64,000 bases of DNA. Origin: an uncultured Prevotellaceae bacterium. Its GTDB lineage: Bacteria > Bacteroidota > Bacteroidia > Bacteroidales > Muribaculaceae. The stretch spans positions 27,765 to 91,764 of the forward strand of contig ONRP01000007.1 in the NCBI GenBank assembly GCA_900320245.1. The letters run 5' to 3'. The position numbers and the translations under genes are program-made. The stretch's first letter is position 1; each line of letters starts with the position of its first letter. Shown piece after piece: positions 35,025 to 45,342 of this stretch. The notes below the pieces were generated by a model, which saw only the letters and a list, made by a program, of their open reading frames with translations, was not told the origin of the DNA and made no database searches.

Positions 35025-35052
35025 TTAAGTTTAGAGTTTAGAGTTTAGAGTT
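35025..35052 (-). repeat. Heptamer tandem array before the small Cys protein
   Basis: Minus strand: AACTCTA three times then AACTTAA, ending 4 nt before the ATG at 35020. The array begins right at the stop codon of the CotH gene. Confidence 0.85.
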
Positions 35053-36497
35053 TAGGGATGATAGCCGAGTTGGCGGTCCATCCAGGCGATACGTTTGTTC
35101 AGCCAGGACTTGAGGAACGAGATCTCGTCGGCATAATTGCTGCCCACGTAGTAGTTGTTCCACACCCACACGCCCCATCGCGGCCATGCCTGGCTGTTGC
35201 GCTGCTCGGCACCGTGCGAGGTGAGGACCGTGGCCAGCGAGTCGACGGTGGCCATCAGGCGTTCATCGCTAAGGTTAGTGCGGCGGTATTCTGCCCACCG
35301 CTGCCTGAGGGCTGCCGTGTAGGCCGGGTCCTCGTTCAGGCGTTGCCACCAGAAGGGGATGAGGTAGTCCTCGCCCTCTTGCCGCATGACGTCGTTGCTG
35401 CGGTACATCCACGTGTCGGTGCGCCAGCCCTCTCTCGCCCGGTAGTTGCCGAAGGCCATATTGGCGTCCCACACCACCATCTTGAAGCGCGGGTCCACGC
35501 TGTCGCGGCGCTTGAAGAATTTGCCGCTCAGGCGGTAGGCGTCCACGTTGTGGCTCACCTCCATCACCAGTTGGTAGTCGATGAACGACATCATGTCCAG
35601 GTAGCGGCGGTAGCCGTTCACGGGGTCGCGATAGCCGGGCGAGGCCAGCGCCGCCTCCATCAGGTCGATTTGGTGCTCGATGTACTGGCGCTGCTCGGGC
35701 CTCAGGTCCTCGGGGTCAGGTTCCTTGTACTGGAAATGGATGATGCAGTCCTCAAAGGGTTTGCCGTTGCTGTCCACGGGGTGGTATTTCGAGACATAGG
35801 TCACCTCGTCCACATTGTCCACCTCCATCAGGTAGCCGCCCGTGAGCGCGTCGCCCTGGCTGCCCGGCTTGCCCAGATTGAGGCGGTTCTTGCCCTTAGA
35901 GACGACCTCGGTGAGCACATACACCCCATAGTAGGTCCCGTCGACGATGAGTTCGCAGTGGCGCCCCAGCGGCGTGAATTCCATCCAGGGCCGTGCGATT
36001 TCCAGGGCCAGCATGTCGCGTATCATGCTCTTGTCGGCATAGGGGGCCAGCAGCGCCCAGTTGTTGTCTTTCGGCATCCCCAGGATGGAGACTTTCTGCT
36101 TCTTGCCGCCACGCTTCAGCGGTTCCTGCAGGGTGCGGAAGGAGTAGGGCTTCTTCGGGCTGTCGTTGTAGGTCGAGTTGCCGCGGTGGCGCAGGGCAAT
36201 CAGCCCCTCGTAGTCGACACGCTGCCCCGGGTGGGCCGCTGTGTCGGCATAGTTGAGGTGCCCCTCGCCGTTGTGGATGATCTTCATGCGGGCTTCGATG
36301 CGCTCCGACCGCATGATGGAATCGCCGCCCACCTCAATCCACACAATGGGCAGGTTGGTCGAGTCGAGCCGCACCTCCGTGTTATCAGGCGGGAAGTTAC
36401 GCGCCGGCTCGGGGCTACACGACACCATCGCGGCCAGCGCCACCGTCAGCGCCGCCAGCCACCACTTCGTCACCCCAAAGCCAATTCTCACTTCCAT
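35052..36497 (-). CDS. CotH-family lipoprotein
   Basis: 481 residues of the CotH protein-kinase-like family. Lipoprotein signal with lipobox Cys about residue 27 (AAMVSC). Core CotH blocks: LRHRGNSTYNDSPKKPYSFR (nucleotide-contacting loop), DNNWALLAPYADKSMIRDMLA, GVYVLTEVVSKGKNRLNL, GGYLMEVDN and MVVWDANMAFGN with the metal-binding Asp. CotH in Bacillus spores is an atypical kinase; targets in Bacteroidales are not known. A paralogue with a dockerin tail lies at 62163. Confidence 0.9.
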   Translation of the reverse strand: MEVRIGFGVTKWWLAALTVALAAMVSCSPEPARNFPPDNTEVRLDSTNLPIVWIEVGGDSIMRSERIEARMKIIHNGEGHLNYADTAAHPGQRVDYEGLIALRHRGNSTYNDSPKKPYSFRTLQEPLKRGGKKQKVSILGMPKDNNWALLAPYADKSMIRDMLALEIARPWMEFTPLGRHCELIVDGTYYGVYVLTEVVSKGKNRLNLGKPGSQGDALTGGYLMEVDNVDEVTYVSKYHPVDSNGKPFEDCIIHFQYKEPDPEDLRPEQRQYIEHQIDLMEAALASPGYRDPVNGYRRYLDMMSFIDYQLVMEVSHNVDAYRLSGKFFKRRDSVDPRFKMVVWDANMAFGNYRAREGWRTDTWMYRSNDVMRQEGEDYLIPFWWQRLNEDPAYTAALRQRWAEYRRTNLSDERLMATVDSLATVLTSHGAEQRNSQAWPRWGVWVWNNYYVGSNYADEISFLKSWLNKRIAWMDRQLGYHP

Positions 36498-39915: not shown

Positions 39916-40482
39916 CTATTCCTCTTTCTTGCCTCCTGTTTTATTGCGGTAATTGATTCTGGCTTGATACATCCGTTCCTTGATGCCCCCGTTTTTCACA
40001 AAGTCATCTTGCAAACGGTTGATGAGTTTGCGCAGCATGTAGTCCTCCTGATGGATGAGCGTGATGGCGATATTTGCTATCGTCTCGGCACTGCGCGTTT
40101 CTATCGCATCGCGGTAAAAGGCGCTGTCATTATGCTTGGCACACACCCTGCGGGTCTGCACACTGCGCGGGTCATCGGTGGCCCACTGCTGCAGGTTGCG
40201 CACCCTCAGGAAGTCTTCGTAGTCGATGAGCAGTTCATGCAGACTCGCTTTTGCCACATTGGTGAGTTTAAGTTCCGTTTCACTGGATGTTGCCGAGGCC
40301 GCACTGCCTTCGGCAATGTTTTGTTTGCCGCTTCGTGCCGCTTGTATCATCTGGTCAATCGTGCGATCACCTTTAGCCAGAAACTTGTGGGCAAAATAAT
40401 AGGTAATATCATAAATGCACTCAGCCTTTTGAAAAACGATGAGTGCTTGATAATTGCCTTGATTGGGTAAGAAACGTTCCAT
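39916..40482 (-). CDS. Four-helix-bundle protein with suffix domain (S23/IVP type)
   Basis: 188 residues from the ATG at 40482 (the upstream 28 codons overlap hsdS). N-terminal four-helix-bundle part: YQALIVFQKAECIYDITYYF, then DQMIQAARSGKQNIAEGSAA, the most conserved block of the S23/intervening-sequence protein family. The C-terminal 60 residues (DYMLRKLINRLQDDFVKNGGIKERMYQAR) match the 'four helix bundle suffix' domain. Family members are related to proteins encoded in 23S rRNA insertions and to Avd of diversity-generating elements. Its place inside a restriction operon is unexplained. Confidence 0.85.
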   Translation of the reverse strand: MERFLPNQGNYQALIVFQKAECIYDITYYFAHKFLAKGDRTIDQMIQAARSGKQNIAEGSAASATSSETELKLTNVAKASLHELLIDYEDFLRVRNLQQWATDDPRSVQTRRVCAKHNDSAFYRDAIETRSAETIANIAITLIHQEDYMLRKLINRLQDDFVKNGGIKERMYQARINYRNKTGGKKEE

Positions 40483-40498
40483 ATTCACCGATGCTTTT

Positions 40499-41683
40499 TT
40501 ATCCAAAGTATTTATCCATTGTGTAGTCAAACATCGTCTGCGTCTCCTCAATGGACTGTTGAACAAGTGCCTTTTGCCGCTCTATTGCCTCAACCTTCTC
40601 TGCAAACTCCTGCTGAAGCGAAAGAGGTGGGAGAAAAATGGGTAGTTTTCTTATCCCCTTCAAAATCACTCTTTTTATAGCCGTTCCTGTTAGATACTCT
40701 CTTTCTACTTTAGAATAAATCTCAGCAGTAGAGAGGTATTTTGCCACAAAATGTGGATTTACAATATCAATAATAGGGCGAAGTATTGCTATTGATGATA
40801 AGATTGCCTGTTCCCTTTCATTAGTAAGGACAAATATGTATTTGAAATAACTCCCATCTTTTGCTATTAAAACATCATTTTTTATAGGCTTGCAGCCATT
40901 TGTCACCAACTTTTCATATTCAATCCGACCAATCCATTTACAGTTTTCATATTCAAAGTGAGTGTCACGCATGTCCTTAACAGATAACATGGGTATATCT
41001 CCGTATTCGTCGTGTTTTGGACTATAATGTGAACCATCAGTGATAAGAGAAGAAATATCACTTAATTTCTTGACTTCCCACCCTTTGGGATTGTCGATGG
41101 GGTCGCCAAACATGGTGTAGAAGATGGACTGTGCGAGTTGGTCGTAGGCTTTGAGTTGTTCTTTCTTCTTCTCGATGATGCCCTGTAGCAAGTCAAGTTC
41201 TGCAACAATCCGCTCCTGCTCAGCCATCGGTGGAATTGGAACAACGACATTTCTGACAATGCTGCTATTGAGGTTATTCACAACCCCGCCAACTGCTAAC
41301 TTTCTAAATTCTTGATACATGTTCGGGCTACTCAACATGTAATAAAGGAATGATTTATTAAATGTATCGCTATCATCTCTAATAACCAACCAACCATCGT
41401 GGATGCAACCATCAATATCTAAGATATATGGTTTGCCAAAACTCATGGAGTTGGATAAGATAAAGTCGCCCTTATGAACAAACCTTGTCTTCTTTAAGCC
41501 TTCAGGTTTTATCTTCTCTTTGGTCGATGTAATATACTTTGAACCCTCAACGGCATCACCTATCTTTATCCAATTTAGCCCATCATCTTCATCTGTTAGA
41601 TATTGCTGTATTGGTCTAGGAGAACCACCTCGTTCAATTAAACAGACTTCCCCTAACTTTTTATATGTCCATCCCTCTTTCAT
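40499..41683 (-). CDS. hsdS: HsdS, type I specificity subunit
   Basis: 394 residues: two target-recognition domains (about 1-140 and 200-330), each followed by a conserved helix (AEQERIVAELDLLQGIIEKK and LQQEFAEKVEAIERQKALVQ). Reads bipartite DNA targets for the HsdM and HsdR subunits. The gene is far more AT-rich than its neighbours, as expected for specificity genes exchanged between strains. Start overlaps hsdM stop by 4 bp. Confidence 0.93.
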   Translation of the reverse strand: MKEGWTYKKLGEVCLIERGGSPRPIQQYLTDEDDGLNWIKIGDAVEGSKYITSTKEKIKPEGLKKTRFVHKGDFILSNSMSFGKPYILDIDGCIHDGWLVIRDDSDTFNKSFLYYMLSSPNMYQEFRKLAVGGVVNNLNSSIVRNVVVPIPPMAEQERIVAELDLLQGIIEKKKEQLKAYDQLAQSIFYTMFGDPIDNPKGWEVKKLSDISSLITDGSHYSPKHDEYGDIPMLSVKDMRDTHFEYENCKWIGRIEYEKLVTNGCKPIKNDVLIAKDGSYFKYIFVLTNEREQAILSSIAILRPIIDIVNPHFVAKYLSTAEIYSKVEREYLTGTAIKRVILKGIRKLPIFLPPLSLQQEFAEKVEAIERQKALVQQSIEETQTMFDYTMDKYFG

Positions 41684-43173: not shown

Positions 43174-43179
43174 AGTCTG

Positions 43180-43254
43180 TGTTGTTTCATTGAACTACAA
43201 AGGTACAACAATTGTTCAAAACATGGCAAAAAACCGATGAAAACTGTGGGCACC
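43180..43254 (-). repeat. 75-bp direct repeat, copy 1 (hsdM promoter)
   Basis: Near-identical (73 of 75 positions) to 44453-44527. Minus strand: -33 TTTG (43230-43227), 21-bp spacer, -7 TACCTTTG (43205-43198). The palindrome AACAATTGTT (43207-43216) lies between the boxes and could be an operator. The ATG of hsdM is 7 nt from the repeat edge. Confidence 0.9.
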
Positions 43255-43298
43255 GTCTATGGTGGCGACAAGTTTGTTTTTGGGTTGTTTGGAGGTGG

Positions 43299-44444
43299 TT
43301 ATCGCAGGATTTTGGCGTTGCCGTTGAAGGTGCAGATTTCGGCGGCAAGGTTGTTCATGTTGTGGAAACGGCTGTAGTCGGTGTCGGCGGGCACGCCGTT
43401 GACTGCTGCCATCGTGTCGAGGCCCCATGGCGCAAGGATGAGCAGGCTTCCGTTAGCGCAGGCCTCAAACCGCGCCCGCTCGGGTTTCCAATAGGGGGTG
43501 ATGGGCTCTTTCTGGATATGGATGAGGGGATAGCCGTTGTTGAGACATTCGTTTTTCATCATCAGTTCGCCATGCGAGATGCCGGGGGTGACCATCACCG
43601 TGGCTCCACGGAGGATGGCATCGACCCATTGCTGATGCTGGCGGGCATAGTCGGCGGTGTGCTCGTAGGGTTCCCTCGTGACGGGATGCAGGCGGTGGCA
43701 CTGCACCTGTACCTTGCTTGGCCACCTCAGCAGGAACAGATTGCCGAAGGTGCCATAGTCGCGTCCTCCAATCTGGACATGCAGGGTGCGCTGCATCAAC
43801 CGGGGCAAGGCACGGCGCAAAATGGCGCGGCGCGGGTTATCGTTGACGTAGGCAATCATCGCCTCGCGGTGCCGCTGGTCGAGGCACACCGTGTCGTCGT
43901 AATTCTCGTCGAAAAGCGGCTGCTGTTCCCTGCCCACCAGGGTGTAGTACTCCTGGCGCTGCCGCTTGGACAGGGCGCGGATGAGCGCGCCCTCGTTGTC
44001 GTGGTGGCGGGCCTTCTCGCGCAGCCATGCCGGCACTTGCGGGCTCGAGCAATCGACCGAGATCGGCCGATTGAAGGAATGGCCGTGGCCCTGTTGCTGC
44101 TGCCACTGGCTGGTGCAGACCGCCTTGAAAGCCTGGATGATGTCGCCCAGGCTCCATTGCATGCGCTCGAGCACTTCGAGCACACCATGGAAATGGTCGG
44201 GCATGCACACGCAGGCGTGTACTGCCACGCGGTTGCCGCGCGCCGCCTGTTTCTCGGGAGTAGCATCCCACGCCTGTTTCACCATTTCGCCCAGCGGTGA
44301 CGGTGCGACCTTGGGGTGATTGACATCATCGCCCAGGCGGCCAAGCAACGGCAACCTGTCGCTCACCACCAGCGTGATGAGATAGGTGCCCCTGCCGTAG
44401 TAGTCGTGCCCTGGATTGCGTGGACGATAAGATGCCGTAATCAT
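43299..44444 (-). CDS. RAYT-type HUH transposase with C-terminal Rossmann-like domain
   Basis: 381 residues. The Y1/HUH domain (1-205): YLITLVVSDR, then the metal motif H84-F-H86 in CMPDHFHGVLEV, and the LFDENYDDTV...AYVNDNP region with the likely nucleophile tyrosine around residue 199. Such proteins move REP-type palindromes by single-strand breakage. The C-terminal ~170 residues (SHGELMMKNECLNNGYPLIHI and NGSLLILAPWG) read like the DprA/SMF-type Rossmann domain found on some Bacteroidales RAYTs. Gene lies between two copies of a 75-bp repeat. Confidence 0.82.
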   Translation of the reverse strand: MITASYRPRNPGHDYYGRGTYLITLVVSDRLPLLGRLGDDVNHPKVAPSPLGEMVKQAWDATPEKQAARGNRVAVHACVCMPDHFHGVLEVLERMQWSLGDIIQAFKAVCTSQWQQQQGHGHSFNRPISVDCSSPQVPAWLREKARHHDNEGALIRALSKRQRQEYYTLVGREQQPLFDENYDDTVCLDQRHREAMIAYVNDNPRRAILRRALPRLMQRTLHVQIGGRDYGTFGNLFLLRWPSKVQVQCHRLHPVTREPYEHTADYARQHQQWVDAILRGATVMVTPGISHGELMMKNECLNNGYPLIHIQKEPITPYWKPERARFEACANGSLLILAPWGLDTMAAVNGVPADTDYSRFHNMNNLAAEICTFNGNAKILR

Positions 44445-44452
44445 TGGCTTGG

Positions 44453-44527
44453 TGTTGTTTCATTGAACTACAAAGGTACAACAATTGTTCAAAACATGGC
44501 GAAAAACCGATGAAAACTGTGGGTACC
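44453..44527 (-). repeat. 75-bp direct repeat, copy 2 (RAYT promoter)
   Basis: Copy of 43180-43254. -7 TACCTTTG (44478-44471) and palindrome AACAATTGTT (44480-44489) are intact; one of the two differences changes the -33 box from TTTG to TTCG (44503-44500), which should weaken this copy. The RAYT ATG is 9 nt from the repeat edge. Confidence 0.9.
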
Positions 44528-44576: not shown

Positions 44577-44608
44577 GTTGCAAAATACAATTTTTTGTGG
44601 TAATTTTG
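44577..44608 (+). promoter_or_regulatory. Promoter of the S24/XRE regulator gene
   Basis: GTTG (44577-44580), 20-bp spacer, TAATTTTG (44601-44608); start codon 45 bp downstream. Divergent from the RAYT promoter. Confidence 0.6.
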
Positions 44609-44652
44609 CCGCGATAAAACACATTTTTCTCAACCTAAAAACAATATATCGT

Positions 44653-45342
44653 ATGGATCCTCAAAAGAATGCCGAGGTCATCGCAAGAATCAAGTACCTG
44701 ATGAAGGAGATGGGTGTCAGGCAAGTGCAGTTTGCCGAGCGCATCGGTGTCGACACCTCCAATCTGTCGAAATATCTCAATGCCCACATGCCGTTGAGCG
44801 AATCGCTGCTCAACCGTATCGTGGTGAACCTGGGCGTTTCCAAGGAGTGGCTGCTCGACGGCACCGACCTGCCCTTCGGCAAGACTCCCGTCCGCCTCGA
44901 CGCCGGCGAGGGCGGCAACCTGTCTGCTTTGGCTCCTGCCGGCACGCCCGTCTATGACGTGGATGCGACGGCAGGGACGGAATCGGGCCGCAACGGGTTG
45001 TTTGCCAACGAGAACATCGTGGGCTGGGTGAACCTGCCCAACATGAGTCCCAACTGCCGCATCGTGAGGGTCAGCGGCGACTCGATGACGCCCGTCATCA
45101 ACGACGGTGACTTTGTCGCCGTGCGCGAGTTGAGCAATCCCACCCAGATTTACTGGGGCCAGATCTACGTCGTGCAACTCGATGACTTCAGGCTGGTGAA
45201 GTACGTGCGCCGCCACACCGACCCCAACATGGTGGTGCTGCGCAGCGAGAACCCCAACTATGACGACATGGACGTGCGCCGCAGCGACATCCACGAGATG
45301 CTGCTCGTGCAGCATGTGCTCCATATCAATTCGCGATTGTAG
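44653..45342 (+). CDS. XRE-family repressor with S24 (LexA/CI-like) domain
   Basis: 229 residues from the ATG at 44653 (open frame runs further upstream but through the promoter). Helix-turn-helix at about 22-42 (VQFAERIGVDTSNLSKYL); C-terminal S24 domain with Ser144 in GDSM and Lys183, the self-cleavage pair, and a possible Ala107-Gly108 cleavage site. By family, a RecA-stimulated self-cleaving repressor. It is divergent from the RAYT gene, whose promoter and the hsdM promoter share a palindrome it might bind. Confidence 0.88.
   Translation: MDPQKNAEVIARIKYLMKEMGVRQVQFAERIGVDTSNLSKYLNAHMPLSESLLNRIVVNLGVSKEWLLDGTDLPFGKTPVRLDAGEGGNLSALAPAGTPVYDVDATAGTESGRNGLFANENIVGWVNLPNMSPNCRIVRVSGDSMTPVINDGDFVAVRELSNPTQIYWGQIYVVQLDDFRLVKYVRRHTDPNMVVLRSENPNYDDMDVRRSDIHEMLLVQHVLHINSRL

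Follow-up and report, generated by a model that had tools for sequence, protein, structure and literature searches.

The 64,000-nt window, the whole stretch of DNA analysed here, encodes on its minus strand hsdM, hsdS, a 23S rRNA-intervening-sequence-type protein (IVP) and hsdR, which, judged from its genes, is a type I restriction-modification operon (Table 1). The open frame named hsdM in the initial annotation, and likewise those of hsdS and hsdR, have Pfam matches (N6_Mtase, HsdM_N, Methylase_S and ResIII/HSDR_N/EcoEI_R_C) and PADLOC matches (MTase_I, Specificity_I and REase_I); the three genes share with other type I operons both the expected domains and the tight gene overlaps. Unlike ordinary type I operons, relatives of this one carry an extra gene directly behind hsdM, for a protein with predicted HUH and DprA-like domains, and in the window that gene stands under an hsdM-type promoter of its own. 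IVP-type proteins are encoded between hsdS and hsdR in some other operons as well (L063, L131, L134).

Table 1. Features of the restriction locus and its flanks (positions in the window).
Feature	Position	Strand	Basis or remark
Gene that we take to be CotH-like; other flank of the insertion site	35052..36497	-	Locus comparison
hsdR, type I restriction subunit, 1107 aa	36533..39856	-	Pfam, PADLOC
IVP inside the operon; start as in the listed ORF	39916..40566	-	Below Pfam cut-off
hsdS, type I specificity subunit, 394 aa; 4-nt overlap with hsdM	40499..41683	-	Pfam, PADLOC
hsdM, type I methyltransferase subunit, 497 aa	41680..43173	-	Pfam, PADLOC
Copy 1: hsdM promoter and leader	43174..43254	-	TTTG-N21-TACCTTTG, AACAATTGTT in spacer; 73/75 to copy 2
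Native 3' flank of the RAYT-like gene and junction to copy 1	43255..43298	-	By eye, some 25 bases resemble other genomes
RAYT-like HUH protein with DprA-like C-terminal domain, 381 aa	43299..44444	-	Predicted fold, invariant residues
Copy 2: promoter and leader of hsdM type, fused in the window to the RAYT-like gene	44445..44527	-	TTTG changed to TTCG
Conserved element ahead of the S24 gene; has a TAATTTTG box of its own but no AACAATTGTT	44578..44612	+	By eye
Core S24/XRE regulator; marks one flank of the insertion site and is not counted as part of the restriction system	44653..45342	+	Pfam, locus comparison

The two promoter copies are direct repeats 1.27 kb apart, with the RAYT-like gene exactly between them. 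Positions 43180-43254 and 44453-44527 are identical at 73 of 75 positions, and the alignment extends with two small gaps to both start codons (85/91, E 2e-36). Read on the minus strand, each copy consists of a TTTG-type box, 21 bases, the box TACCTTTG, a leader and ATGATTAC, with which both genes begin (their first eight bases are equal). The second box fits TAnnTTTG, a Bacteroidetes promoter consensus. The palindrome AACAATTGTT sits in the spacer of both copies and nowhere else in the window, and the -33 box reads TTTG ahead of hsdM and TTCG ahead of the RAYT-like gene. The initial annotation had described each of these traits, namely the 73/75 match, a Bacteroidetes-type promoter with a palindrome between its boxes, a repeat ending just before like start codons and a damaged -33 box in one copy, and alignment reproduced them all. 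It had also proposed a search for further copies: the window's own genome (3.02 Mb in 73 contigs, 90% complete) yielded no third, the next match being 30 bases long (E 0.019). A dispersed repeat was thus ruled out in this genome, where only the two copies were found. Across 101 genomes of the genus the only long match is in G059 (91% over 76 bases); 13 others match over 23-55 bases, and some of these matches precede hsdM or the RAYT gene.

Comparison with other hsdM genes identifies the repeat. A TAnnTTTG box lies 28-42 bases ahead of the start in 23/23 other hsdM promoters, one of them that of an hsdM stub in G055, and the leader of copy 2 resembles the hsdM leaders of G015, G067, G095 and G064 (93% over 42-45 bases). 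The duplicated promoter is ordinary in itself: it is an hsdM promoter, one copy of which was captured by a neighbouring gene, most likely through loss of hsdM. The window copies differ from each other by 2 substitutions in 75 bases and from the G059 copy by 6 and 8 plus one gap, and had they diverged like their flanks, so close a likeness would have a P of 0.04-0.05. It is likely, if weakly supported, that they became alike in the window's lineage through a duplication or a gene conversion of recent date.

We then examined the product of the captured gene, which the initial annotation called a RAYT transposase. The name is backed in part by the predicted fold: the AlphaFold2 model (pLDDT 88) has an HUH fold with H84-x-H86 and Y199, and it shares these and N203-P204 with the RAYT/TnpA-REP structure (PDB 4er8). 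H84, H86, Y199, N203 and P204 are invariant across 41 relatives. With the whole model, Foldseek placed IS200/IS605 transposases first (E 1e-4; 2xma matched), ShosA 12th, RAYT 4er8 13th and DprA 32nd, and the 16 matches at E <= 0.001 are all IS200/IS605-type transposases or 4er8, with the exception of ShosA. However, the scores of the protein lie below the curated cut-offs of Pfam Y1_Tnp (13.6 vs 23 bits) and NCBIfam REP_Tyr_transpos (35.6 vs 80 bits). Nor was a REP partner found with the one hairpin pattern searched, which occurs behind the RAYT gene in several relatives and which 8 genomes hold at 0-3 places each, in every case fewer than the control; a REP-like hairpin family is ruled out as far as this pattern goes. 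For these two reasons we use the term RAYT-like for the protein and do not class it among the RAYTs.

The window protein further differs from RAYT/TnpA-REP in about 170 extra C-terminal residues with a predicted DprA-like fold. Modelled alone (pLDDT 91), this domain has DprA and ShosA as its six best PDB matches (3uqz and 8zva among them; probability 0.97-1.00), with moderate scores (E 0.002-0.04) and 16-19% identity. The model thus has the Rossmann-like fold of DprA at an E no better than 0.002, and, in distinction from DprA and ShosA, the window protein has one such domain joined to an HUH domain. We therefore predict that the protein combines an IS200/RAYT-like HUH domain with a DprA-like one. 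PADLOC gained no match for this protein or for the ATPase encoded beside it in other genomes. Several paralogues per genome, 320-400 aa long, share this layout of HUH and C-terminal domains (G000 contigs C32, C38 and C48, loci L187-L190, and other genomes), and the four examined in the window's own genome adjoin genes that look ordinary by eye.

An orthologue of the RAYT-like gene (>=75% identical) is present in 20 of the 101 genus genomes. It lies directly behind hsdM in seven (G015, G094, G052, G071, G095, G067 and G057; hsdM is cut by a contig end in G052 and G057), with the hsdM stop and the RAYT start within two bases of each other or overlapping by one. An AAA_25 ATPase gene, hsdS and hsdR then follow in five of the seven, hsdS and hsdR without the ATPase in G067, and the ATPase and a contig edge in G071. 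In G063 the gene stands between a different hsdM (28% identical) and hsdS, whose start its stop overlaps, and in G030 it is placed after hsdR. The window and G047 share the order promoter-RAYT(-ATPase)-promoter-hsdM-hsdS-IVP-hsdR, with the ATPase present in G047 and missing in the window. Only traces of hsd genes accompany the gene in G059, G084 and G055 and at the intact copy of G078, while in G060 the RAYT gene is accompanied by the ATPase segment and by some 40 bases that resemble the sequence ahead of hsdS. In G069, G061, G098 and G008 the tests used gave no restriction trace, and in G008 the RAYT gene itself is broken. The ATPase gene, which by eye has its own promoter, follows the RAYT gene in six of the seven hsdM-RAYT operons (L060:7705-8787, L065:7844-8929 and others), and the genus has further relatives of it in other places.

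Viewed from hsdM, an intact RAYT gene adjoins 9 of 11 judgeable loci with hsdM of >=96% identity; G078 has a remnant and G064 none (the contig of G061 ends inside hsdM and lies outside the 11). G064 carries nearly the same hsdM as the window (dN 0.004) in a promoter-hsdM operon without a RAYT gene, and none was seen in the fetched stretches of ten hsdM loci of 80-92% identity (G039, G028, G086, G070, G079, G046, G096, G062, G068 and G042). The hsdM family as a whole thus did not include the RAYT gene from the outset. Type I operons can carry cargo genes such as prrC, which encodes an anticodon nuclease. The present case resembles prrC in being an accessory gene embedded in an hsd operon, whereas its product is HUH/DprA-like and not an anticodon nuclease.

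The loci with traces carry scars of lost hsd genes. The RAYT gene is joined to an hsdM-type leader in five genomes (the window, G059, G084, G047 and G078), four of which hold hsdM or hsdS scars. In G047 and G078 the scars are only 7-8 bases long: the leader is followed directly by CTGTAGC, with which hsdM ends. In G084 an hsdM leader (44 bases, 95%) precedes the RAYT gene, and the 130 bases behind the gene match the sequence that leads up to the hsdS start (86%); in G059 an hsdM-type leader stands ahead and the start of hsdS behind, its ATG overlapping the RAYT stop. G055 retains the hsdM promoter, hsdM codons 1-26 and the last hsdM codons, a gutted hsdM, and then the RAYT gene. Several of the deletions that gave RAYT the hsdM promoter end within a few bases of its start codon, and the gene has stayed intact in the remnant loci. 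Its start in the window and G059 is ATGATTAC, like that of hsdM, while the operon-embedded RAYT genes of the genus start ATGATCAC or otherwise; this start together with the leader agrees with hsdM having been deleted at a short sequence that both genes share, so that the RAYT gene was left on the hsdM promoter. At the level of sequence, comparison between genomes thus documents the operon membership of the gene, the hsdM and hsdS scars and its conservation.

We assign a probability of about 0.77 to the reading that the repeat is the hsdM promoter and leader, that the RAYT gene gained one copy through loss of hsdM, that its product is an accessory or passenger of the restriction system and that the S24 gene is unrelated. 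The most likely course is that the window's RAYT gene took the promoter when an older operon lost its hsdM. We infer the order of events and the origin of the second copy as follows. The ancestral layout, as in close relatives, would have been promoter-hsdM-RAYT-(ATPase)-hsdS-hsdR. An earlier operon at the S24/CotH site would have lost hsdM by a deletion ending in the shared start sequence ATGAT-AC, after which the promoter would drive the RAYT gene; this gene would have persisted as the remaining hsd genes decayed. The full promoter-hsdM-hsdS-IVP-hsdR operon directly downstream carries the second promoter copy, and the duplication or gene conversion mentioned above would have made the two alike.

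The S24/CotH insertion site is common to the window and G059. CotH adjoins S24, with no panel gene between, in 10 of 20 other S24 loci, and the other 10 have no CotH there or differ. A site that the operon commonly occupies is beside der/era (G015, G064, G095, G067, G047 and G078 are examples); neither the window's genome nor G059 carries a panel restriction gene there. No genome with the proposed intermediate was found at the S24/CotH site. In G047, which has a different scar, the two promoters are unlike each other, and the arrangement looks as if two operons had merged.

The initial annotation had suggested, as one possibility, that the RAYT gene was inserted together with a copy of the promoter. 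The association of gene and promoter copy stands; the history looks reversed, given the position of the gene inside the operon in relatives and the scars, with the promoter gained through hsdM loss. A mobile element that arrived with the promoter, or duplicated it on insertion, would account for a gene exactly between two direct repeats and for orthologues at several chromosomal sites. However, at the other sites with traces, pieces of hsdM or hsdS accompany the gene, on both sides in G084 and G078, which argues that operons moved and not the RAYT gene alone; moreover, the single hairpin pattern searched is not dispersed, and relatives of the gene were not found in viral contigs, plasmids or phages. 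We consider such an insertion improbable. Still less probable is a deletion-type switch, in which recombination between the 75-bp repeats would remove the RAYT gene and leave promoter-hsdM unchanged. The near-identical direct repeats that flank the gene would permit it and G064 has the expected promoter-hsdM without RAYT, albeit at another site, but the loss would be one-way, nothing but RAYT would be switched since hsdM keeps a promoter either way, and the promoters of G047 are not alike.

The initial annotation had also proposed that one damage-responsive regulator controls restriction and transposase together. The S24/XRE protein has HTH_3 and Peptidase_S24 domains and is, by these domains, a CI/LexA-like repressor as annotated; it would bind AACAATTGTT, which lies between the boxes of both promoters and is kept in reduced form, ACAATTGT, in the promoter of G059. 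The S24 gene, however, is core, matched in 97 of the 101 genus genomes, one copy each (G096 has two partial ones), as against 26 with a close hsdM, and M16 is the next panel gene in 19 of 20 other S24 loci (another gene lies between in L129). None of the 23 other hsdM promoters contains the palindrome, nor do the RAYT promoters of G084, G078 and G047, and GAACAATTGTTGTA is not enriched in the genome (15 matches with <=2 mismatches, the two copies included, vs 19 for the reversed control). The conserved element upstream of S24 is a different sequence: the block GCGGCAAAATTACCACAAAAAATTGTAATATGCAA, or a near form of it, was seen by eye in 19 of 22 loci compared, with a weaker form in L129 and none visible in L128 (the row for L058 does not show its S24 upstream region). 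On these grounds the S24 regulon on AACAATTGTT was rejected as the least probable of the explanations, and the S24 repressor appears, from these comparisons, to be an unrelated neighbour of the restriction genes. The block at 44578-44612 is a candidate site for the S24 gene's own control.

Divergence between genomes bears on how the genes travelled. For the RAYT gene, dS between the window and others is 0.40-0.59 (0.49 with G015; 0.22 with G059), and for hsdM and hsdR it is 0.32-0.58, apart from the hsdM of G030 (1.64). Against G015, G064, G094 and G071, dS is 0.36-0.44 for hsdM (all four) and 0.42-0.51 for hsdR (three), compared with 0.95-2.4 for the core genes S24 and M16; against G059 these core genes are also low (0.34 and 0.33). 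Over 10 loci, identity to the window drops together for the two genes, from 99% for hsdM and 86% for RAYT to 82% and 72%. Low values for RAYT and hsd relative to core genes, and low values throughout against G059, suggest that the operon moved between species with the RAYT gene and then descended in the window/G059 pair; the RAYT-like protein and the restriction genes thus appear to travel together. The RAYT gene has dN/dS of 0.10-0.22 in 17 pairs, orphan copies included.

We further surveyed relatives beyond the genus. One genome scan gave 225, of which the best 80 were fetched; every one comes from a Bacteroidota assembly, and the titles of many name the rumen or another gut site of ruminants. 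The two surveys are not independent, since about 13 of the 80 loci lie on contigs already represented in the genus survey. With the type I panel, 12 of these best 80 have M, R and S and 63 have no match, so the RAYT gene does not need a restriction system. The remainder comprise L204 (hsdM to the contig edge), L201 (the same locus as G055, with the hsdM stub) and L210, L241 and L269 (short or distant matches). With a wider panel, a restriction-type gene lies <=3 kb from the RAYT relative in 17 of the 80, as against 1 of 14 paralogue loci (a weak methylase match) and 0 of 20 S24 loci (one hsdM is 8.3 kb away). Other systems lie beside RAYT relatives in L241 and L269 (HSDR_N, N6_Mtase, Methylase_S) and L262 (Eco57I/TaqI_C). 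In G118, from another family, an hsdM relative (24%) is followed in one row by two genes that PADLOC candidate models match, a gene judged hsdS-like from its matches and by eye, a RAYT relative (43%) and an hsdR relative (26%). On a tree with 83 labelled rows, in which L241, L262 and L269 count as none, the 20 operon or remnant RAYTs need 4 label changes, whereas the 300 shuffles required at least 12 and on average 18; the number rises from 4 to 6 if G060 and G069 count as traceless.

The point of interest is an HUH/DprA-like partner that lives inside or beside some restriction operons and is able to outlast them. A transposase-derived HUH protein with a DprA-like domain has become established beside restriction systems of several kinds in gut Bacteroidota, and selection maintains it when a neighbouring system dies; the promoter repeat becomes a readable history of operon decay and promoter capture. 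As to biochemical activity, we infer from the two domains, an HUH nicking domain and a DprA-like one, that single-stranded DNA is most likely what the RAYT-like protein works on, be it an accessory of the restriction system or its passenger. More speculatively, and in our view doubtfully, such proteins could be recurrent working partners of restriction systems that process incoming or replicating single-stranded DNA left uncut by restriction enzymes, or that reshuffle hsd operons, and so be useful after the restriction genes die. If the protein does work with restriction, this would be a new accessory function of type I systems. Among the matches listed, titles and abstract openings in the open-licence literature on RAYTs, type I operons and DprA/ShosA do not describe this arrangement, and no paper there was found to combine DprA with an HUH transposase; passages of PMC3390384 mention RAYTs and restriction genes apart from each other, and the main text of PMC6006769 contains neither 'restriction' nor 'HsdM'.

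Some distant loci have further genes beside the RAYT relative. In L253, L254 and L267 a PLD-helicase gene and then an Eco57I-type methylase, 5.5-6.0 kb off, lie downstream of it (the Pfam search covered L253). These three loci and L241, L246, L249 and L269 have the same upstream gene and changing downstream genes, which suggests a variable defence spot. A type I-like operon of another family (L186:4627-13644) has the RAYT relative between an hsdS-like gene and hsdR and contains two further genes that match PADLOC candidate-defence models, one PDC-S72 (with a weak SoFic match besides) and the other PDC-S04. At L220:6016-10108 the RAYT relative is followed by a DUF4007 gene and a 1077-aa protein without a Pfam match.
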